Virus record (IMG/VR): IMGVR_UViG_3300032271_000084
Location: 1 to 43,039 of that record
Origin: a virus
DNA length: 43,039 bases
Direction: 5' to 3' (one strand)
The notes beneath the pieces are model-generated. The model made no database searches. It was given only the letters and a program-made list of their open reading frames with translations, and had not been told where the DNA came from. Positions within the stretch are counted from its first letter, which is position 1; each line of letters begins with the position of its first letter. The position numbers and the translations under genes are program-made. Of the stretch, positions 4,335-36,120 are shown piece by piece.

Positions 4335-5662
4335 TACCTGTATTTCTTATTAGAGTACCCCATTTGTTTTAACTCTGGAAGCTGTTTCTCAAGTCTGCAT
4401 CCAATGTCAATGCGGTAGCCAATGCTATTGGGAATGTTAATTTTTTTCTTGACAGTGCCATAGCAATGCTCACGAGCTTCTTCAACAGTCTCACCTGTAC
4501 CAGTAACAATACACACGTAGTTACCAGCAGTAACAAACTGTTCTTCGTTAAGCTTAACCTTGCCACTAACCATAGCAGGAGCTTTAGCACACATAACTTC
4601 AGCCAAATGAACGTTCTTAATAACATCCTCTTTGGTCAAATCAAACATAGGGTAGCCAGCAGACTCTTTCTTAGTAGTTCCCTTGTCAAAGGGGTACGGA
4701 GGCATAGAGATAACAACACCACAAGCAATGTCTTCGCTTACTTTTAAAGTGTCTTTACCGTCTAACAAGTCAAGCATCCACTGAGCTGGATCACCTTTGT
4801 GAAGAGCTTGTTGGATCATAAATAGGGGCCATCCCGGACGCATAGTGAACTCTAGGGGCCAAGGTATGCCTTTGTCATCAACAATGCAGTTAACGTCAAT
4901 GTATCCTGTGTACCGTAGACCCATTAGATAACCCTCTAAGGGTTTCAAAACTTTGTCTGCAAGCAAAGAGTCCTGCACATAATAAAGAATGGTTCCTTCT
5001 TCACCTGTAGACACACCAAGATCGCCAGCTAACAGCTTCTTAAACTCGTGGTTAATACACAGATGTTTAGAGAAACCAGAAGAACCAAACCAACCACCAA
5101 CTGCAATTTCAATGCCACCGTGGAACTCTTGAAGAATAAAAGAGCCTTTGTAAGCATTACTTTTCTTCCACTTCTGAAGCATAAACACCATGTCGGCAGG
5201 GGACTTAGAAACATAGCTAAGAGCCTTGTCACCGTCGCCTAGTGGCTTAGATACGTACCGCTTGTTGTTCTTAATAACAAAAGAAATAGCCTCATCGTAG
5301 CTTTTAAATTCTGTAGAGGGAATAACCGGGATACCAGCACGCTCAAATATTTCTGCACCGTGTTGCCGGTCTTGTTCCCAACGGTTAGTGTCAATGCTAG
5401 GCCCAATAATAGGGTAGCCTTTATCCCGGTAGCGTTCTAGTTGGTGAATGTAGTACGTGTTGTCTGTACAAAAGATTAGGTCAGCCCAGTTCATGTGGGG
5501 TTCCCACTCAGGTACACGAGTAAGCAACCCACCATCACCTACCATAGAACGAGAGCCGTCTTTGTTGTTACGGATGTAAGCTTTAACAGTGTGACCATAC
5601 GCCATACAACGCATAGCAAAATCTAGGCATACACCACCAGCATCTATTAGTAGGATTTTCAT
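4334..5662 (-). CDS. PurD-like ATP-grasp enzyme (phosphoribosylamine-glycine ligase homologue), 442 aa
   Basis: Full-length resemblance to PurD (GARS; about 430 aa), which joins phosphoribosylamine and glycine using ATP. The N-domain begins MKILLIDAGG but lacks the usual GGREH. IIGPSIDTNRWEQDRQHGAEIFERAGIPVIP (88-115) matches the linker before the ATP-grasp fold. ATP-grasp marks are K139 (SKP), LQEF at 177-180 and E185; the metal region near 254-275 reads YIDVN...LEFTMRPG, where PurD usually has EFN. The C-domain (VCIVTGTGETVEEA...IGYRIDIGCR) is strongly PurD-like. Its place among tail and ejection genes is odd for purine synthesis. It may instead be a repurposed ligase acting on another substrate. 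Confidence 0.8.
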   Translation of the reverse strand: MKILLIDAGGVCLDFAMRCMAYGHTVKAYIRNNKDGSRSMVGDGGLLTRVPEWEPHMNWADLIFCTDNTYYIHQLERYRDKGYPIIGPSIDTNRWEQDRQHGAEIFERAGIPVIPSTEFKSYDEAISFVIKNNKRYVSKPLGDGDKALSYVSKSPADMVFMLQKWKKSNAYKGSFILQEFHGGIEIAVGGWFGSSGFSKHLCINHEFKKLLAGDLGVSTGEEGTILYYVQDSLLADKVLKPLEGYLMGLRYTGYIDVNCIVDDKGIPWPLEFTMRPGWPLFMIQQALHKGDPAQWMLDLLDGKDTLKVSEDIACGVVISMPPYPFDKGTTKKESAGYPMFDLTKEDVIKNVHLAEVMCAKAPAMVSGKVKLNEEQFVTAGNYVCIVTGTGETVEEAREHCYGTVKKKINIPNSIGYRIDIGCRLEKQLPELKQMGYSNKKYR

Positions 5663-8600
5663 TGTTGTTTAGCCCGTTGTTTTTCAAGGTTCTTACGCTG
5701 TGTTTCTAGAGACCGTTTTTCTTGAGCATGTTTACTAGTGTAGTCTTTACGACCAGCTTTTATTTCTTTATCCCGGTATTCCCAAGCATTCTCTTTAGTA
5801 CGCAACTCACGTTCAGCACGAGCTAATTTCTTTTGTTCTGGTGTGCTACCGTACATAGGGAAACCTGCTGTTCCTAGTAACGCACGTTTAAGACCTTCTC
5901 CTTCTGGAGCACTCATAGAAGCTTGTGCTTGAAAAGGTATTGCAGACTGAGCAATAACCTTAGCTCGGCTTAAGTAAGCATCTGTTGTTGCATTACCCGT
6001 TATGTTCTCAGGAACAATCTTTTGGGCTTGAGGACTTGCGTACTCAGTACCAGCCAAACCTACCCACAAAGCTTTAGGAATAAACCCTAGTTTACTAGCA
6101 AATGTTTTATCTGGATCAGCAATCCAATGGTACGGTTCCATAGCGTGTTTCATAGCTTGCATAGACGTACCATCAGGCCACTCAATACGAGTTGGGTCTT
6201 TGTTTTCCCACACAGGACGATTAGCGGTCATCATGTTAATGCCGTTAATTAGTGTGAGGTAAGTCAGAGCAGTTTTAAACTGGTACAACCTAGCATAGTC
6301 AGCCTTAGTTGTAGGAGCCATCATTCCCTTAATGCCTTCTACTGGTTGCCACTTAGTAGGATTAAGGTCTTTGGGAAGAGCAGAAGTAAACGCACGCAGT
6401 GTAGACAACGTCCAATCAGGAGCAAACAAAGCAACTTGCAATGCACGACGACCTTCAGGACTGTATGTAGACATAGCTATACGTTTAGCAAACTCATTTT
6501 GAGTCTGCGTAGCAGCATCAAACCAATTCAATCCACCAAAGCTATTGTTTACAAACCCAGCAATTTCTTTACGTTGTTGTGCTTCATCAAAAGGTTTACC
6601 GTCTCTAGCAGCTTGTATACGAGCTTTATCAAGATAGGCATCAGCAACCATAATCTTGCCACCAGTATGCAAGTAATCCCATGTGTACTTGTCAAATATG
6701 CCTAGGGTGTATTTTTCAACAGTAGACAAAGACTTCTCAAGTACACGAGTCTTAGGGCCGTACTTACCAATCATAGAATCAGCAAACTTACCAACAGAAC
6801 TAAGAACACCTTGAGATACATCTTCAGGTGCTTCAAGTTGCAAACCAGATTCTCTAATCCACTTATCTACGTTCTCACCAACACCACCTTTGCGGTATTG
6901 TTCAACAGCTTTAGATATAGCAGACAACTTTAAGTCTCTACCTGTAGCGGCTCTAACACCTCTCTCAACTAGAGGAAGAACAATAGCTTCTTTAATGGGA
7001 GTCCAGATTGGAATCTGAGCACTAGACATAACTTCCATCATGGATTTAGCATGGAAGAAACTACCAATAACGTTTATACGTTTGGTAACTTGGGAAATCA
7101 TCCCAAGAGCTTTCATCAAATCTTTAGGCCCAGCATCAAACACAAACTTCAAAGCAGGCTCTAAATCAGGGTGTACAGCTTCACCAGAAAACTGTGCGCT
7201 CTCAATAGGTTTCCAACCGTAAGGTATTGGATTGTCTTTGTTAACTTCCCGGATTAAAGACTCACCGTTAACGTTACGAACTTGTTTTAGGCTAGCAACA
7301 AGATTTTTGTTTTCAATAGCCTTCTCAACAGACATAGCATAGTCGTGATAAATCTCAGCCAAGTTGTCTGTCTTAAGTTTAAAACGATAGTTTTCACCAT
7401 TGTCAGCTAACCAAGCATTGATACCATCAATGTGTGCTACTAGGTCTTCACGAGTCTTAAGAACACGTTCTTTACCGTATTTAGTAGTAGTCTTAACGCC
7501 TTCACCTTTAGCACCACCCATGCCAAAGATGTCATTCATAAACTCTTTAAGAGCAGTAGGAGGTGCAGCACCCTCAGAGACAACGTTACGAGCTACGTAG
7601 TCTTCATGCCAACCATTAATAACACCAGCATCTAAAGCTTTCTTACCAAGAGAGTCCATCAAAGCACGGAACTTAGTAGCAATCTCTTTAGCTTTACCAG
7701 TCAAGGTTACACCCTTGTCTATGTCATAAGTAAGTTTATTGAGATCAACTTCATTACCTGCCATGTCTAGCAAGTCTTTAGTGTTGTTACTAGTAATACG
7801 TTCGTTAGCAGCTTTGTTACGCAGGTTAATGCCTACAAACTTTTCTGTTTCAGCAATAGGTGTTTTCCAAGTCTTTTGATATTCTTTGTAGCCTTCAAAA
7901 AACTCAATGGCTTTAGTCTCACCATGTTTCTCGTAAATCTCTTGAGCAATCTCATTGAATTCTTGTTGACTCTTAACGTCACGAGGATCAGTCTTAGTAC
8001 GGTCAACAGCAGGCTCGGCAGGCTTAGTCTCAGCAGCAGGTTCTGTAGCTTTAGGTTCTGTTGTAGATTTGTTCCACTCAATAATGGGTTCTTCCATTTT
8101 TCCAGAGTAGTACTCAGCATTAGATTTTTTAAGACGAGCAGGATCAATCTCTACAACTTTGTATTTGCCTTTTGGAATTACAACTGGCTCTGTAGTATTA
8201 ACAGCCCATTCTTCTCTGTTTTCTCTGCTAAGGCTTTTAACCGCATCAGAAGAAATTTCAATTGAAACAGGTTTTAATTTATCAAGTGCTTCTGGGTCGT
8301 CTATTAATTCGTCAGACTGCTTGGTAACACTGTCTCCTGCATAACGATCAGACACACGAGAGTCGTGGCTAAAAGAAACGCTATTAGTTTTTCCACTAAA
8401 GTTAGAAGAAGGACGAAGTATTAAATTGCCAGCAGAATCTATTTGAACGTTTTGAGAAGATGTTCCGTGGTAAATAGTTTTAGGAGCAACAGTGTCGTCT
8501 AACGTAGCCGCACGAAATTCTGTAGCGGGTTCACCAGTAGCCTTAGCTTTCTTTTCAGCAAGAGTTTGGAGAGCAGCTTTGTTAGTCTGGTTTTCGTATT

Positions 8601-9864
8601 GAGCTTTAGTTTGGCCTTCTACTTTAGGAGTCTTAATGTTCTCAGCTTCGTGTTGAAGAACAAAGTCAGCCCACTCTTGAGGTGTTTTAAACGCATCCGC
8701 AGCAATAGGAAACACACCCTCAACTTTAGGTTTAGTCCAAGCTTTGTCTAAAAATTGTTGGTACGTATGTTCTGGGTGTATAGAGACCTCATTAGTCTCA
8801 TGTTTGTACCTAGCACCGACAACACTGCCATCAGAGCGTGTCATACCACGATCTATAGATACAGGCAACCCACCAACTGTTTCTGGGACATTAAACAGGT
8901 CAAAGTTTTTATCACCAGCAGTACGCAAGTCACCACTTTGTAAGCCCATCTTAACGTCTGAAAGCTTCTCTACTTGTCCCAAATCTTTAGCACGGTTCCA
9001 AGCTTCTTTACGATCTAAGAAGTTACCGTTCTCATCAACAAAACCTTGTGTATGTGTGTCAGCAGTCTCAGTTTTACGAAGTGGGTCGTGCATAGGCCCA
9101 TGCAACTCTACCTCACCAGTCTCATTGTTTTTAAACGCAGTCTGTACAATCTTAGCTTGAGCATCTTTTTTAGCTTTATTTTCTTTAAGTTTGTCAAGAA
9201 AAGCTTTTTGTTGTTCAGGTGTAGAGTTAACTTTAGACGGTTGATCTGGGGTCAACGGAGCTTCCGTAGATGTACTGTGTACACTCTTACGTTCTTTGGT
9301 AGCAATGTCTTTAATTACTTGTTTACCAGCAGTTAAAGCAGCTTTGCCACCCTCAGTGCCACCAACTAACATACCAACGTTAGCCATAAGAGGAACAGCT
9401 TCTGAAGGAATTCCAGTAGCAGCTTCTAGTTTTTTGCCACCTGCTTCTAGTTTTTTACTAAACCAAGACATAGCTTGAGGCAAAGGAGCATTAGCATAAG
9501 ACTCAGCTTCTCCAAACAAAGATACGATCTTTTGCATTGGATTCATTAGAGACTGACCTATAGCTTCACCTACTTTAGCTCCACGACCATATGCTTGTTT
9601 AGGAGTTTCTCCAGTAAAAGGACTGGCTAACATACCACCTGTAGTAGTAAGTAATTCAGCACCAGTAGCTGCTACAAATCCAGGAGCAGACAAAGGGAAG
9701 TCTAGAGCAGAAGCAGTGCCTGCTACAAATGCTTTACCAAGCTTAGAAGCAGTAGATGGTTGTGCAGCAGCCTCAGAAGCTACAGGCGTAGCTGTAGTGG
9801 GGTCAAATGCACTAGCAGCAGGTTTATCTTCAACTGGTGTGGCAGTAGATGGATCAAACGCCAT
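5659..9864 (-). CDS. giant internal virion / ejection protein with ART-like and degenerate peptidase-like segments, 1401 aa
   Basis: I choose ATG 9864 (MAFDPSTATP), because GGGAG lies 9 bases upstream and the ATG overlaps the previous stop; an ATG 15 bases upstream lacks a ribosome binding site. The N-terminus repeats AFDPxTATPV, followed by Ala/Gly-rich hydrophobic stretches (about 35-190). FKTPQEWADFVLQHEAEN (near 392-409) resembles a zincin HExxH helix with the second His replaced by Asn. KTIYHGTSS (about 462-470) with later SVSFSHDS and DRYAG resembles an ADP-ribosyltransferase fold. The C-terminal half is helical and ends in a charged coiled coil. Large multi-domain proteins of this type are ejected with DNA. 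It is the last of three ejection-type genes. Confidence 0.72.
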   Translation of the reverse strand: MAFDPSTATPVEDKPAASAFDPTTATPVASEAAAQPSTASKLGKAFVAGTASALDFPLSAPGFVAATGAELLTTTGGMLASPFTGETPKQAYGRGAKVGEAIGQSLMNPMQKIVSLFGEAESYANAPLPQAMSWFSKKLEAGGKKLEAATGIPSEAVPLMANVGMLVGGTEGGKAALTAGKQVIKDIATKERKSVHSTSTEAPLTPDQPSKVNSTPEQQKAFLDKLKENKAKKDAQAKIVQTAFKNNETGEVELHGPMHDPLRKTETADTHTQGFVDENGNFLDRKEAWNRAKDLGQVEKLSDVKMGLQSGDLRTAGDKNFDLFNVPETVGGLPVSIDRGMTRSDGSVVGARYKHETNEVSIHPEHTYQQFLDKAWTKPKVEGVFPIAADAFKTPQEWADFVLQHEAENIKTPKVEGQTKAQYENQTNKAALQTLAEKKAKATGEPATEFRAATLDDTVAPKTIYHGTSSQNVQIDSAGNLILRPSSNFSGKTNSVSFSHDSRVSDRYAGDSVTKQSDELIDDPEALDKLKPVSIEISSDAVKSLSRENREEWAVNTTEPVVIPKGKYKVVEIDPARLKKSNAEYYSGKMEEPIIEWNKSTTEPKATEPAAETKPAEPAVDRTKTDPRDVKSQQEFNEIAQEIYEKHGETKAIEFFEGYKEYQKTWKTPIAETEKFVGINLRNKAANERITSNNTKDLLDMAGNEVDLNKLTYDIDKGVTLTGKAKEIATKFRALMDSLGKKALDAGVINGWHEDYVARNVVSEGAAPPTALKEFMNDIFGMGGAKGEGVKTTTKYGKERVLKTREDLVAHIDGINAWLADNGENYRFKLKTDNLAEIYHDYAMSVEKAIENKNLVASLKQVRNVNGESLIREVNKDNPIPYGWKPIESAQFSGEAVHPDLEPALKFVFDAGPKDLMKALGMISQVTKRINVIGSFFHAKSMMEVMSSAQIPIWTPIKEAIVLPLVERGVRAATGRDLKLSAISKAVEQYRKGGVGENVDKWIRESGLQLEAPEDVSQGVLSSVGKFADSMIGKYGPKTRVLEKSLSTVEKYTLGIFDKYTWDYLHTGGKIMVADAYLDKARIQAARDGKPFDEAQQRKEIAGFVNNSFGGLNWFDAATQTQNEFAKRIAMSTYSPEGRRALQVALFAPDWTLSTLRAFTSALPKDLNPTKWQPVEGIKGMMAPTTKADYARLYQFKTALTYLTLINGINMMTANRPVWENKDPTRIEWPDGTSMQAMKHAMEPYHWIADPDKTFASKLGFIPKALWVGLAGTEYASPQAQKIVPENITGNATTDAYLSRAKVIAQSAIPFQAQASMSAPEGEGLKRALLGTAGFPMYGSTPEQKKLARAERELRTKENAWEYRDKEIKAGRKDYTSKHAQEKRSLETQRKNLEKQRAKQQ

Positions 9865-11156
9865 TATTGAGGCTCCCATTTACCGTTTACATACTTAGCC
9901 TTATTGCCTTTGGCATCTGTGTAAACTTTACCCTCTTCAAATTTAGGAGCACTTGGTTTGGTACTAGTAACATCTGGCTTAGCAACAGGCTTTGCCGCTG
10001 CTTCTATTTGCTGTGGCGTTAATTGTTTTTCAGACGTAGCGGCATCAACAATGTTTAGTTGGTGCATAAGCCTGTCCCTAGTTCCTGATGGAGGAAGACG
10101 CTTAGCAACTTCTACAAGAGCATCATTCTTCTTTTTACTTAGCTTGTCAAGCTCAGATGTTATGCGAGTAACTTCAGCAGAAGTTTTAGGATCAGGTTTA
10201 CCACTAAGACGTTCTAGGTTAGCTTTGCTTTGAAGGTCAGCTAGGTCTCTGTTGAGACGTTCAATAGAAGGTTTGTTAACAGAGTCAATACGACGCTCTT
10301 CTTCAGCGTACAACCTACCTACCTGTATATCAACACGAGTCTCTTTAGTAGCATCTGCTTTAGCTTCTGCTGCTGTTACACCCATTTGTTTAACTTGAAT
10401 TCTTGTGTCACCAGCAATCTTTGCAGCTTTAATGTGAGCTTCGTTAACAGTCTTTTGTTTTATTAATGCTCCCTCAATCTTTTGTTGAGTAATTTGTGCT
10501 ACTCCAGAATTGATTTGACCAAGAAGAGAATCACGCTTTTGTTCAGGAGTAAATTTATTCCAGTTAGCATTTCCAACAGCAGCAATAGCAGACTTAGTAA
10601 CAGACTCTGGCAAGTTGTTTACGTACTCACCAAGTTGTTCTTTGGGAATAGATTTGATGTTTGCTAGTGCCCTGTTCATCTCTTGAGCATGGGTATCTAA
10701 TTCTGTTTGTTTAGCTTTAGCTGTACGTTGTGCAGCCAATTCAATACCAGCATTGTTTTTAAAGTATGCTTCTGAATCATTTGTAGCACCAAGTACTGCT
10801 AGATTAAGAATCCTAGCAGCAGAAATGTCGTCACCTGATTTCATAGCAGCTTTAAACTCAGGGCTGTTCATAGCAGCTTGAGTAGCTTGTTTTGATTCTT
10901 CACCAGCTTTAATGCCAGTGTTAGTCAACATGTTGCTAAGCTTATTTTTTTCTAAAATAGCTTGATCTTCTTGTAACTTAATAGCGGCTTCTTGAGGAGC
11001 ATACGCAGCTTTAAGACGATCTTGTTGAAGCTTAAGTTGTGTCTCTTCCGCAGCAGCAGCAGCTTGATCTTTAACGTAAGGAGCAGCAGCCATGTTTTGC
11101 TGCATTTGCAAAGCTGCTGAACTACCAGCAGCCATATCAGACATCATATAAGCCAT
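9864..11156 (-). CDS. internal virion / ejection protein, coiled-coil rich, 430 aa
   Basis: A very good ribosome binding site, GGAGG, sits 7 bases before ATG 11156. The protein is dominated by Ala, Gln, Lys and Glu helices (for example AAAAAEETQLKLQQDRLKAAY and later TRITSELDKLSKKKNDALVEVA), with Met-rich Ala segments at the N-terminus. There are no enzymatic motifs. It lies between a Gly-rich protein and the 1401-aa protein in the position of the middle T7/P22-type ejection proteins, so I infer that it forms part of the trans-envelope DNA conduit. Its stop overlaps the next ATG (TAATG). Confidence 0.65.
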   Translation of the reverse strand: MAYMMSDMAAGSSAALQMQQNMAAAPYVKDQAAAAAEETQLKLQQDRLKAAYAPQEAAIKLQEDQAILEKNKLSNMLTNTGIKAGEESKQATQAAMNSPEFKAAMKSGDDISAARILNLAVLGATNDSEAYFKNNAGIELAAQRTAKAKQTELDTHAQEMNRALANIKSIPKEQLGEYVNNLPESVTKSAIAAVGNANWNKFTPEQKRDSLLGQINSGVAQITQQKIEGALIKQKTVNEAHIKAAKIAGDTRIQVKQMGVTAAEAKADATKETRVDIQVGRLYAEEERRIDSVNKPSIERLNRDLADLQSKANLERLSGKPDPKTSAEVTRITSELDKLSKKKNDALVEVAKRLPPSGTRDRLMHQLNIVDAATSEKQLTPQQIEAAAKPVAKPDVTSTKPSAPKFEEGKVYTDAKGNKAKYVNGKWEPQ

Positions 11157-32723: not shown

Positions 32724-33173
32724 ATGGATACACCAGTCTTATCGACTTTGTATGCTGCTGCTACTGAATCGTTAGTTTCAGACGCTAGTGCAACTAGTAC
32801 GTTTGAGAAGATGATTACAGAAGCATTTACGCATGGAACTATTGATACGTTTGCTAAAGACCTTCTTGACACTGAGAGGCAGATCAAGAAAGACTTTGAA
32901 GTCAAGTCAATGCCCGGCCCTTGGCGGTCTGCTAAGTCCGTCATTATGGGAGCCATGAAACTCAGCATCAAGCTAGTAGACAGTAATGGCAACTACTTTG
33001 GCAAGACTGCTCTTCAGAACAAAATCAAGGATTGCAAGGTTCACACTAAAGAACCAATCAACTCTGATGCTTATGCAAACAAAATTATCAAACTTCTTAT
33101 GGAGATACCAGAAGACCTTGACGCTGGTCTTATTCTCCGTTTGGTTGGTGACTTCATTCGCGATGCTGACTAA
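32724..33173 (+). CDS. unknown protein coupled to the VWA gene, 149 aa
   Basis: ATG 32724 follows GGAGATAG, so I reject an upstream in-frame ATG inside the previous gene. The protein is helical with a charged middle (FAKDLLDTERQIKKDFEVKSMPGPWRSAKSVIMGAMKLSIKLVD) and ends EIPEDLDAGLILRLVGDFIRDAD. There is no recognised domain. Its stop overlaps the ATG of the VWA protein (TAATG), so it may be a third part of the VWA/AAA+ system, for example an adaptor. Confidence 0.65.
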   Translation: MDTPVLSTLYAAATESLVSDASATSTFEKMITEAFTHGTIDTFAKDLLDTERQIKKDFEVKSMPGPWRSAKSVIMGAMKLSIKLVDSNGNYFGKTALQNKIKDCKVHTKEPINSDAYANKIIKLLMEIPEDLDAGLILRLVGDFIRDAD

Positions 33174-34954
33174 TGCTAACGCAAGGCATTGAAGTAATGA
33201 GGTACATCCGAGCTAGTGCTGGCAGAGCTGGCATCTCGGTTGTATTTGAAAATATTAATCAGCCTAGGCATGATGGCAAAACTATTTATCTGCCTAGGAT
33301 CACTGACAAAACCAGTGATGACGAACTTAAACAGCTAATGGCATCTGTAGACCACGAGGTTGCACATGATCGCTTTAGCTGCTTTGATGTTCTTGCGGAG
33401 AAGAAGCTTGATGGTTCTGGTATCTTGATGTTTGTCTGGAACTTCTTAGAAGACTCTAGGGTTAACGTCATAGAGGCTAAGGAGTACAGAGGTTTCAGAG
33501 AGAACTGGGATCACTGTAGCTCTGAGCTAGTAGCAGACATTCTTAAAAGAGCTGAGAAAGAGAAAACAGCTTCTTCAAAGCTTACTTCTTCGTTGCTATG
33601 TTGGGAAAGCCACATATCTGCGACTTACTTTCCAACAATGGAGTTGGTGGTTAGCCGATTCGTTCCCAACAAAGAGATTACAAATGTTCTTAATAACTAT
33701 TGTGATCGTCTTGTTTCTTGTCATCAGATTCTCAACAAAAGACTAGGTACTGAAGCAACGTATCAACTGGCTGTAGACATACTTACAGAGCTGGGTGCTA
33801 AGTGCAAAGAAGAGCTTAAGGAAGACAAAAAGCCTTCAGATAAATCTAGTGGCAAATCAAAAGGCAAAGCAGAAGAGTCTGAATCTGAAGATAAAGAGTC
33901 CGATGAATCTCTGGAGCATGAAAAGGGTGAACAAGACTACAAAGTCATCAACATAAAGCTCACCAAAGAAGACCTAGAAAAGTTCTCTTTGACTATGCCT
34001 CAAGATGGTGCTGAGATGGGTAAGGTTGGTGTTAACTTTGAACCTGTAGACATTGGTAGAGATAGATGGGACTTGACTGACTACAAAGATTTCATTGTAG
34101 TTAACTATCCTAAAAAGACTGGTGATACTACTTTTTTTAATAAAACAGCCACTAGTGAAAAGTTTAAAACTGAGTACAGGAGTAGGGTTAGTGACAAGCT
34201 AGTCTCTCAAGAAAATTTTGCTCAACAGGTTCGTAGGCTAATACAAATCAGAGCTAGAGTACAAACTCAATACGGCACTAAACGCGGCAAGCTAGACCAG
34301 TCTAGACTGTCTCGTATTTGCTTTGATGCTCCCGGATTCAATGAGCGTGTGTTTAAGACTCGGATTGAGAACAAGACTCTGGATGCTGCTATCACAGTTC
34401 TAGTAGACATGTCTGGCTCTATGGCTGGTGATAAGGCGTACTACGCTTTAGCTTCTACTTTGCTGCTAAATGAAGTGTGTTCAACACTAAACATACCACT
34501 AGAAATCATTGGTTTTACTGATGGATACATCTCTGGCTCAACAGTTGCTCCAGTCATGTTTATCTACAAATCTTTCTCTGACCTAAAAGTCACTGAAGAT
34601 GCACTAGTGCATGATTTTTCAATGAGTAGTCGTCACATGAATGGCAACCCTGATGGTGAAAACATTCTCTGGACACATGATCGCTTGATCAAACGTAAAG
34701 AGAAGAAAAAGATCATGGTTGTTATGTCTGATGGTAGTCCAGCAGCTTCTAAAAGTTCTTATGGCTTAGAAGGCTTTACTAAAAAAGTCATCGATGAAAT
34801 ACAGGGCGGTAAAAAAGTAGACATCTATGGCCTAGGTTTGTGTAGTGACTCAGTTAAGTACTACTACAAAGCACACGATGTTGTCTCTGAACCCCAAGAA
34901 ATTCCCAGCAAGTTGTTATCCTTAATAGAAAGAAAGGTGTTAAGTCATGTCTAG
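33173..34954 (+). CDS. CobT-like VWA protein with HExxH (zincin-like) N-domain, 593 aa
   Basis: The N-domain holds HEVAH at 61-65 and NFLEDSRVN at 90-98. This HExxH...LED pattern suggests a zincin-like domain, seen in some CobT/VWA relatives. An acidic/Lys/Ser linker covers about 212-258. The C-terminal VWA domain carries the MIDAS DMSGS (412-416), with NPDGENILW (492-500) and MVVMSDGSP (516-523), as in CobT. The AAA+ partner overlaps by 8 bases. CobT with CobS inserts cobalt in B12 synthesis, but no other B12 gene is present. N4-like phages also carry an AAA+/VWA pair of unknown role (recollection). The likely job is ATP-driven remodelling of an unidentified target. ATG 33197 is an alternative start. 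Confidence 0.8.
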   Translation: MLTQGIEVMRYIRASAGRAGISVVFENINQPRHDGKTIYLPRITDKTSDDELKQLMASVDHEVAHDRFSCFDVLAEKKLDGSGILMFVWNFLEDSRVNVIEAKEYRGFRENWDHCSSELVADILKRAEKEKTASSKLTSSLLCWESHISATYFPTMELVVSRFVPNKEITNVLNNYCDRLVSCHQILNKRLGTEATYQLAVDILTELGAKCKEELKEDKKPSDKSSGKSKGKAEESESEDKESDESLEHEKGEQDYKVINIKLTKEDLEKFSLTMPQDGAEMGKVGVNFEPVDIGRDRWDLTDYKDFIVVNYPKKTGDTTFFNKTATSEKFKTEYRSRVSDKLVSQENFAQQVRRLIQIRARVQTQYGTKRGKLDQSRLSRICFDAPGFNERVFKTRIENKTLDAAITVLVDMSGSMAGDKAYYALASTLLLNEVCSTLNIPLEIIGFTDGYISGSTVAPVMFIYKSFSDLKVTEDALVHDFSMSSRHMNGNPDGENILWTHDRLIKRKEKKKIMVVMSDGSPAASKSSYGLEGFTKKVIDEIQGGKKVDIYGLGLCSDSVKYYYKAHDVVSEPQEIPSKLLSLIERKVLSHV

Positions 34955-36074
34955 TACAGATAAAGTAGAAGACCTCGTTAAGAAAGCTCTTAAGGAGGCG
35001 TTAGATAAGCGCAAAGTATCTACTCCAACCCCGGCAGAAGCAGCATTCACAGAGATTCTTGAAGAAATGTGTCCCAGAGAGCTAGCTACTCCACATACCC
35101 CACATTTAGGTAGGATCGCCCTTAAAGCTGATCAAGCATATTTCTCCGTTGTTACTAGAAACACGGACATAAATGCAGAAGATGACTTTCCTGTCTCAAT
35201 CTTTGACTCATATGATTGGGATGAGCGTATTGCTTCTTTTATTCCAAAGGTAAACCTTAACTACGTCATTGATGCAGAGCTTGCAGCTAGCATCTTACGT
35301 GCTTGGGAAATGGACGAAAAGGTACTTTGTTATGGCCCTACTGGTGCTGGTAAGTCTTCTCTGGTTGAACAGTTGTGTGCTATTACTCGTCGCCCTTTTA
35401 TCCGTATTAACTGCACAGGAGACATGGATAGCTCCATGATCTTTGGTCAGCTAACAGCTAGGGATGGCTCTACACACTGGGTTGATGGTGCTGTTACAGA
35501 GGCTGTACGCTATGGCGCAGTTTTTGCTTGGGACGAGTGGGACGTAACTCCTCCAGAGATTTCTATGGGTCTGCAATGGCTCTTAGAGGACGAAGGCAAG
35601 CTGTTCCTAAAAGAAATGCCCGGTAGTACCAAAGACAAACAAGTGATACCACATCATCACTTCAGGCTTGTGGCAATCGGTAATACACAGGGTCAAGGTG
35701 ATGACACAGGTGCTCACGCTGGTACTAACGTACAAAACTCAGCTACACTAGATCGCTTCGGCACAGCCGTTTACGTAGGCTATCTCAAACCAGATGTAGA
35801 AGAAAAAATGATCCTAAACAAGTGGGGTTCCACTATCACGGTCAAAGCAACCAAGGAGCTTGTTAAACTTGCTAACTTGATTCGCCAAGGCTACCAAGCT
35901 GGTCAATTCAACTTGACTATGTCTCCTCGCTCATTGTTCAGCATTTGCAAGAAGCTGTCGTATGGTTCTACCTTACACAAAGCTTACCAAGTGGTGTATC
36001 TCAACAAGCTGAATGAAACACAACGCAAAGTTGCTGACGAACTCTTCATCAAAATTTACGGCAACGTAGTCTAG
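34947..36074 (+). CDS. CobS/MoxR-like AAA+ ATPase, 375 aa
   Basis: The AAA+ core has Walker A GPTGAGKS (130-137), Walker B VFAWDEWD (192-199), sensor Asn in IGNTQGQ (244-250) and the arginine finger in ATLDRF (266-271). GDDTGAHAGT ahead of LDRF is a CobS-type feature. The N-terminal 100 residues are a helical adaptor. The overlap with the VWA gene (ATG inside its last codons) implies a complex, as for MoxR/VWA chaperones and CobST. A strong terminator follows. Substrate unknown. Confidence 0.87.
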   Translation: MSSTDKVEDLVKKALKEALDKRKVSTPTPAEAAFTEILEEMCPRELATPHTPHLGRIALKADQAYFSVVTRNTDINAEDDFPVSIFDSYDWDERIASFIPKVNLNYVIDAELAASILRAWEMDEKVLCYGPTGAGKSSLVEQLCAITRRPFIRINCTGDMDSSMIFGQLTARDGSTHWVDGAVTEAVRYGAVFAWDEWDVTPPEISMGLQWLLEDEGKLFLKEMPGSTKDKQVIPHHHFRLVAIGNTQGQGDDTGAHAGTNVQNSATLDRFGTAVYVGYLKPDVEEKMILNKWGSTITVKATKELVKLANLIRQGYQAGQFNLTMSPRSLFSICKKLSYGSTLHKAYQVVYLNKLNETQRKVADELFIKIYGNVV

Positions 36075-36088
36075 AACTGCAAAACCAT

Positions 36089-36120
36089 ATAGCCTTCCCT
36101 TTTGGGAGGGCTATTTATTT
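36089..36120 (+). terminator. strong intrinsic terminator after the AAA+ gene
   Basis: ATAGCCTTCCC (36089-36099), loop TTTT, GGGAGGGCTAT (36104-36114), then TTATTT. An eleven-pair stem with one GU pair. It separates the VWA/AAA+ group from the replication genes. Confidence 0.8.

Follow-up and report, generated by a model that had tools for sequence, protein, structure and literature searches.

A virus-type CobT/CobS gene pair with a zincin-like N-domain: a candidate proteolytic AAA+/VWA machine

The gene pair described here lies on the plus strand of a virus record of 43,039 bases (IMG/VR IMGVR_UViG_3300032271_000084, the full length of which is called the window below) and encodes a virus-type CobT protein and a CobS/MoxR-like AAA+ ATPase. 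The CobT-like protein (593 aa, 33173..34954) was recognized by PF11775 (4.5e-24), by phrog_17276 and, slightly below that family's cut-off, by PF06213 (1.2e-5). It consists of a zincin-like N-domain (residues 1-220, 33173..33832), a charged linker (residues 211-345) and a von Willebrand factor A (VWA) domain with a metal ion-dependent adhesion site (MIDAS). The N-domain contains HEVAH at residues 61-65 (33353..33367), on a predicted zinc-binding and catalytic helix, and LED at residues 92-94 (33446..33454), on a second helix with the candidate acidic partner E93 or D94. The MIDAS elements (34406..34735) are DMSGSM (412-417), NPDGE (492-496) and SDG (519-521), and residues D412, S414, S416, D494, S519, D520 and G521 are invariant in 13 diverse phage proteins. 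The AAA+ protein (375 aa, 34947..36074), whose ORF (open reading frame) shares 8 bases with that of its neighbour, carries GPTGAGKSS at 130 and AWDEWD at 194, matches phrog_249 (5.7e-66) and TIGR01650, and aligns to solved CobS chains over residues 97-372. Thus, an AAA+ gene of the MoxR/CobS clade adjoins a VWA gene with an intact MIDAS. An intrinsic terminator-like hairpin on the same strand (36089..36114; 11-bp stem with 6 G-C pairs, T-rich tail after it) ends the group. The overlapping genes, both N-domain motifs, the CobT-style MIDAS, the CobS-style AAA+ protein and the terminator are all as a first-pass annotation of this DNA had described them.

HExxH arises in 1.7% of shuffles of the window CobT-like protein. 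H61, E62 and H65 are invariant in 47 close relatives (roughly 60-85% identity). More widely, a CobT profile matched 132 ORFs in the loci fetched, 116 of which hold the N-domain; the remaining ORFs without HExxH are truncated at the end of a contig or reading frame. HExxH is present in 114 of the 116 complete phage N-domains (86 HEVAH, 14 HEVGH, 10 HETSH and others), the two exceptions being Stenotrophomonas phage ANB28 (REVST) and Pseudomonas phage Nican01 (SEISK). Codon usage at these positions varies synonymously (H61, CAC 62 and CAT 51; E62, GAG 73 and GAA 40; H65, CAT 84 and CAC 29), and the residues are therefore under purifying selection. The acidic pair is ED in 111 of the 112 HExxH proteins scored and VD in the remaining one, that of ICP2.

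The structure of the N-domain was predicted with AlphaFold2 (AF2) from a 47-row alignment. The model is confident (predicted local distance difference test, pLDDT, 93.1; predicted template-modelling score, pTM, 0.89) and places HEVAH in a helix spanning residues 49-68 and LED in a helix spanning residues 84-104, after a two-strand element. A Foldseek search of the PDB ranked three metallopeptidases first, namely selecase (4qhi), aminopeptidase N (5z65) and ERAP1 (3qnf), none of them significant, and further aminopeptidase and selecase chains appeared lower in the list. Among viral models, the significant named matches were phage CobT or cobalamin-biosynthesis proteins, followed mostly by VWA proteins. 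On the strength of the model and these fold comparisons, we call the domain zincin-like. As a separate observation, N-domain profiles weakly match the anti-CRISPR AcrIIA26 (PDB 9zq6_B; E 0.013-0.016) over the LED helix (residues 86-116, window 33428-33520), with the ED pair aligned to AcrIIA26 E49/D50; AcrIIA26 is absent from the displayed Foldseek matches. These two AcrIIA26 residues are reported to be essential for Cas9 inhibition (PMC13089141). The similarity is a lead only, and could reflect chance or exaptation.

The first-pass annotation had regarded the HExxH domain as an addition to a CobT-type protein; comparison with canonical CobT revises this. A profile of 13 phage proteins gave a full-length match to the solved CobT chain 9uka_G (E 2e-73), and hhalign of the virus-type N-domain against that of canonical CobT gave a probability of 96.7% (E 3.7e-10). 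The domain is thus homologous to the canonical N-domain, and the motif is its common state in viruses. In 37 alphaproteobacterial CobT sequences, D60 is kept while H61 is replaced by S or A, E62 by M (31/37) or another hydrophobic residue, and H65 by R or K (Y in one); E93 is kept and D94 is Q in 36 of the 37. Some virus or phage-plasmid CobT proteins, namely those of CRP-810 and of an Acinetobacter element, score above the Pfam CobT threshold with HExxH intact. When VWA domains were placed on a tree, canonical CobT grouped with the HExxH-bearing proteins of CRP-810, T5S1 and IncC (95/96), and the HExxH state required five changes; the tree is unrooted and has long branches, so its details are unsure. 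Repeated loss of HExxH would be the simplest history, since repeated gain of three identical residues is far less likely. The HExxH-bearing N-domain is the normal state of virus-type CobT, and canonical CobT appears to be the degenerate form.

The pair is widespread. In tblastn searches, the AAA+ protein matched 670 phage records, and the CobT-like protein matched 52 phage records and also 1124 plasmid records, many of the latter elements of ~110 kb from Klebsiella, E. coli and Acinetobacter; scans of viral contigs with the CobT proteins of ICP2 and CRP-810 as queries found no relatives. Of 128 loci, 125 have a CobS-like gene immediately 3' of cobT. In three cyanophages, the 'peptidase' gene adjoining cobS has HEVGH, an NVLEDARIE-type motif and DWSGSM; the corresponding motif is HECGH in the haloarchaeal virus HVTV-1 and HEIGH in a Gordonia phage. 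An IncC plasmid (locus L138, 1888-3684) and a related Vibrio conjugative plasmid (locus L139, 1927-3687) encode HEAAH VWA proteins beside a DUF3150 gene, with NVLEDCRIE/NVIEDCRIE motifs. A CobS-like AAA+ gene is also present in Listeria phage P200 and in Acinetobacter phage YMC13/03/R2096; neither HExxH nor DxSxS occurs in the directly adjoining genes examined. HEVGH is also carried by a 'nitric oxide reductase activation protein' encoded next to an AAA+ gene on a Bacillota plasmid (locus L140, 1921-3744), a hint that some NorD-like proteins may keep an HExxH site. A defence system was also considered and set aside: PADLOC did not match the VWA protein and had nothing for the ATPase beyond weak matches to generic AAA+ proteins.

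Replication genes recur beside the pair. In the window, whose structural and replication blocks are divergent, the group stands at the start of the plus-strand replication block, with primase, DnaB-like helicase, DNA polymerase, 5'-3' exonuclease and endonuclease I genes downstream; ICP2 polymerase is among the best phage relatives of the window polymerase. The ICP2 pair adjoins primase/helicase, the T5S1 pair lies beside DNA polymerase and primase/helicase, and cyanophage pairs lie beside sliding clamp and clamp loader genes. DNA polymerase III alpha is near the pair in SSU5-type, Rhizobium, Stenotrophomonas and Pseudomonas phages and in an Acinetobacter phage-plasmid.

We consider it rather probable that the pair is an AAA+ remodelling machine of the MoxR/VWA type with a built-in zinc metallopeptidase, and not a cobalt chelatase. 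A remodelling or protease-like complex, as the first-pass annotation had proposed, is thus the best reading. In the mechanism that we propose, the CobS-like protein would form the ATPase ring, and the CobT-like protein would engage the ring while its VWA/MIDAS domain holds a target; machines of this type are thought to grip their target by the MIDAS while the ring drives it (PMC7159879). The zincin-like N-domain (H61, E62 and H65 with E93 or D94) would sit on the C-terminal small domains of the ring, as the NorD N-domain does and the CobT N-domain probably does too. PDB entry 21vu, which pairs a CobT N-domain chain with a 104-aa CobS chain matching the C-terminal part of the AAA+ protein, is consistent with such NorD-like docking. 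An intact HExxH in a docked N-domain would place a zinc-dependent protease beside a moving target, so that ATP-driven twisting could bring a target segment to the zincin site, where it would be cleaved. Given the position of the pair in what appears to be an early/replication block, early expression would be expected, and the machine probably acts on a protein of the host or the phage that is important for takeover or replication, not on the corrin ring.

Several observations weigh against a peptidase. The Foldseek search of the PDB gave no significant N-domain match (best E 1.3). ICP2 has V at E93, with D94 retained, and E93 is itself retained in most forms without HExxH, canonical CobT among them, so that E93 may be structural. 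D94 behaves differently, being retained in all HExxH proteins scored, including that of ICP2, and altered in canonical CobT, Nican01 and AciPP2. The DUF2201 protein of phage GAP32, in which HEILH is followed by WNKAADYAIN, shares W, N, D and the last N with WNFLEDSRVN of the window. Because D94 is lost along with HExxH while E93 mostly stays, and because of this motif likeness, the sequences suggest that D94 may be the acid that works with HExxH and that E93 may have a structural role. Finally, HExxH is degraded in the CobT-like proteins of Nican01, ANB28, the Acinetobacter phage-plasmid AciPP2 (QEVAK) and Paraburkholderia (locus L134, QLAAR). Since at least three mobile-element lineages (Nican01, ANB28 and AciPP2) and the Paraburkholderia homologue keep the protein without the motif, proteolysis would be dispensable in some settings. 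Repeated loss suggests that a remodelling function is able to stand alone.

It is also possible that the HExxH/ED site serves a metal-loading chaperone, which would insert its metal into a phage or host metalloenzyme in the manner of NorQD and iron, with no peptide cut. HExxH is a metal site under either explanation, and the related NorQD, CoxDE and CobNST systems do insert metals (PMC13036017, PMC7159879). Two findings speak against this proposal. Canonical CobT works in metal insertion and yet has lost the HExxH site. Moreover, the residue at the position of E62 is in zincins the catalytic base and not a metal ligand, and E62 is as invariant as the two histidines, which argues for chemistry over mere metal carriage. 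We therefore think a purely metal-loading role unlikely.

A second alternative is that the two genes are an auxiliary cobalamin (B12) pair. Phage cobST clusters have been published and read as cobalamin genes, with the proposal that phage CobS and CobT hijack host CobN, inserting cobalt into corrin and thereby providing more cobalamin for infection (PMC8651126); cyanophage cobS is, in addition, a core gene that has been grouped among metabolic ones (PMC3037559). The full-length homology to CobS and CobT is real. The scores, however, fall far below the equivalog cut-offs, at 101 bits against 759 for TIGR01651 with the CobT-like protein and 115 bits against 558 for TIGR01650 with the AAA+ protein (4.2e-33). 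CobN (PF02514) was found in none of 30 phage or phage-plasmid records, the window included, a count that does not cover host CobN, and the window bears out the earlier statement that no B12 genes lie nearby. Relatives are abundant on plasmids of E. coli, Klebsiella and Acinetobacter, many of phage-plasmid size, and these bacteria are not known to have aerobic CobN. The N-domain also retains the HExxH that was lost in every canonical CobT examined. The lack of CobN in the 30 records and the wide shortfall from the cut-offs are why we prefer a reading other than a chelatase; together with the HExxH state, they make a role of the pair as cobalamin auxiliary metabolic genes quite unlikely.

A chaperone and protease for virion assembly has been proposed for a pair of similar architecture in jumbo phages, with an archaeal-virus precedent in tail assembly cited in support (PMC7824862). 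The gene order in the window does not favour such a role: the pair is on the plus strand with replication genes, whereas the terminase, portal, major head and head-closure genes form the minus-strand block. Cyanophage, SSU5-type and ICP2 pairs likewise adjoin replication genes, and the jumbo-phage type examined belongs to a different family. We regard this explanation as very unlikely for the window pair. That the N-domain is an idle zincin remnant, which only docks on the AAA+ ring and keeps HExxH for folding, agrees with the lineages that retain the domain without the motif but can hardly be right, since the three residues and the D of ED are kept together over great divergence wherever HExxH is present, and canonical CobT lost three or four of them together.

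The first-pass annotation had also placed the pair in a three-gene unit with an upstream gene for a 149-aa protein (32724..33173, plus strand). This gene is real, and its stop at 33173 overlaps the CobT start by 1 base; the reading from ATG 32724 is supported by conservation in 35 relatives, which begins there. Relatives were found in 68 loci of this phage group, mostly directly 5' of cobT and, in two loci (L098 and L101), ~2 kb upstream of it. The family core is MPxxWRSAKSV...GKT/S, and the AF2 model is all-helical (pLDDT 88.3, pTM 0.65). Searches of Pfam and PHROG gave no match, and the fold matches among viral models are uncharacterised proteins. No relative was found in SSU5-type, Rhizobium, ICP2 or Roseobacter loci. 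The three-gene arrangement is thus local to this phage clade; the 149-aa gene is not part of the wider CobT/CobS system, and its product could act as an adaptor or as a substrate, or the gene could simply be an unrelated neighbour. Elsewhere in the window, the minus-strand structural block ends with a metallo-phosphoesterase-like gene (1022-1984; phrog_221, 2.2e-30), and the sole match of a 1406-aa minus-strand ORF (5659-9879) is a short one to phrog_839, a family whose function is unknown.

The combined claim that the widespread virus 'CobST' pair works as a proteolytic AAA+/VWA machine and is not a set of B12 genes, and that the cobaltochelatase subunit CobT arose from such a protease whose active site was lost, seems to us about as probable as its opposite. 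The cobS gene and its neighbour are core cyanophage genes and a stock example of phage 'auxiliary metabolic genes'. Should virus CobT prove to be a zincin protease, metagenome papers that base B12 claims on phage cobS/cobT would need rereading. An uncharacterised ATP-driven protease, or relatives of it, would then be encoded in hundreds of sequenced phages and in roughly a thousand plasmid records, and a cobaltochelatase subunit would have originated as an inactivated protease.

The phage and cyanophage 'cobST' clusters (phrog_249 and phrog_17276; T4-GC 146 'peptidase' with T4-GC 150 cobS) are the same pair, with the same HExxH/ED motifs, and differ in being usually interpreted as cobalamin genes. 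The cyanophage 'peptidase' label has been called a mistake (PMC8651126); our comparison suggests that it is nearer the truth than the cobalamin reading. With these labels, the published cobST clusters and the 2021 jumbo-phage pair on record, the system is not wholly undescribed, and the first-pass annotation, which had named it the best candidate for an undescribed system, went too far. We found no paper joining a zincin site to CobT-type proteins in a search that left out most subscription journals and all preprints.

In the jumbo phages, a protein that joins an HExxH N-domain to a VWA-like one has a published MoxR partner (Iyer et al. 2021, PMC7824862). The versions in GAP32 and Salicola phage SCTP-2 are DUF2201_N (PF13203), and presumably belong to the same family as the published pair. 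They have HEILH and a W-N-x3-D-x2-I-N motif without the Glu of LED. PF13203 was not found in the window CobT-like protein, and the CobT profile finds nothing in GAP32 or SCTP-2; identity of the two pairs was rejected on this profile comparison. A guess that ASV44728 lies in SCTP-2 was dropped, as that record starts at ASV44016, has 541 features and seems not to reach it.

The aerobic cobaltochelatase subunits CobS and CobT (TIGR01650/TIGR01651; PF06213, PF11775) are homologous to the phage pair across the AAA+, VWA and N-domains. Canonical CobT has D-S/A-M-A-L-R and VEQxR where the window protein has DHEVAH and LEDSR, and the latter thus does not carry the CobT residues. NorQ/NorD differs in serving iron insertion, and its published model has no peptidase role. 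In that model, the VWA finger enters the ring pore, the NorD N-domain binds the NorQ small domain, and ATP-driven rotation stretches the linker (PMC13036017). The likeness lies in the architecture: a hexameric MoxR ring and a VWA protein whose N-domain binds the small domains of the ring, with a linker between, a layout that the window protein shares.

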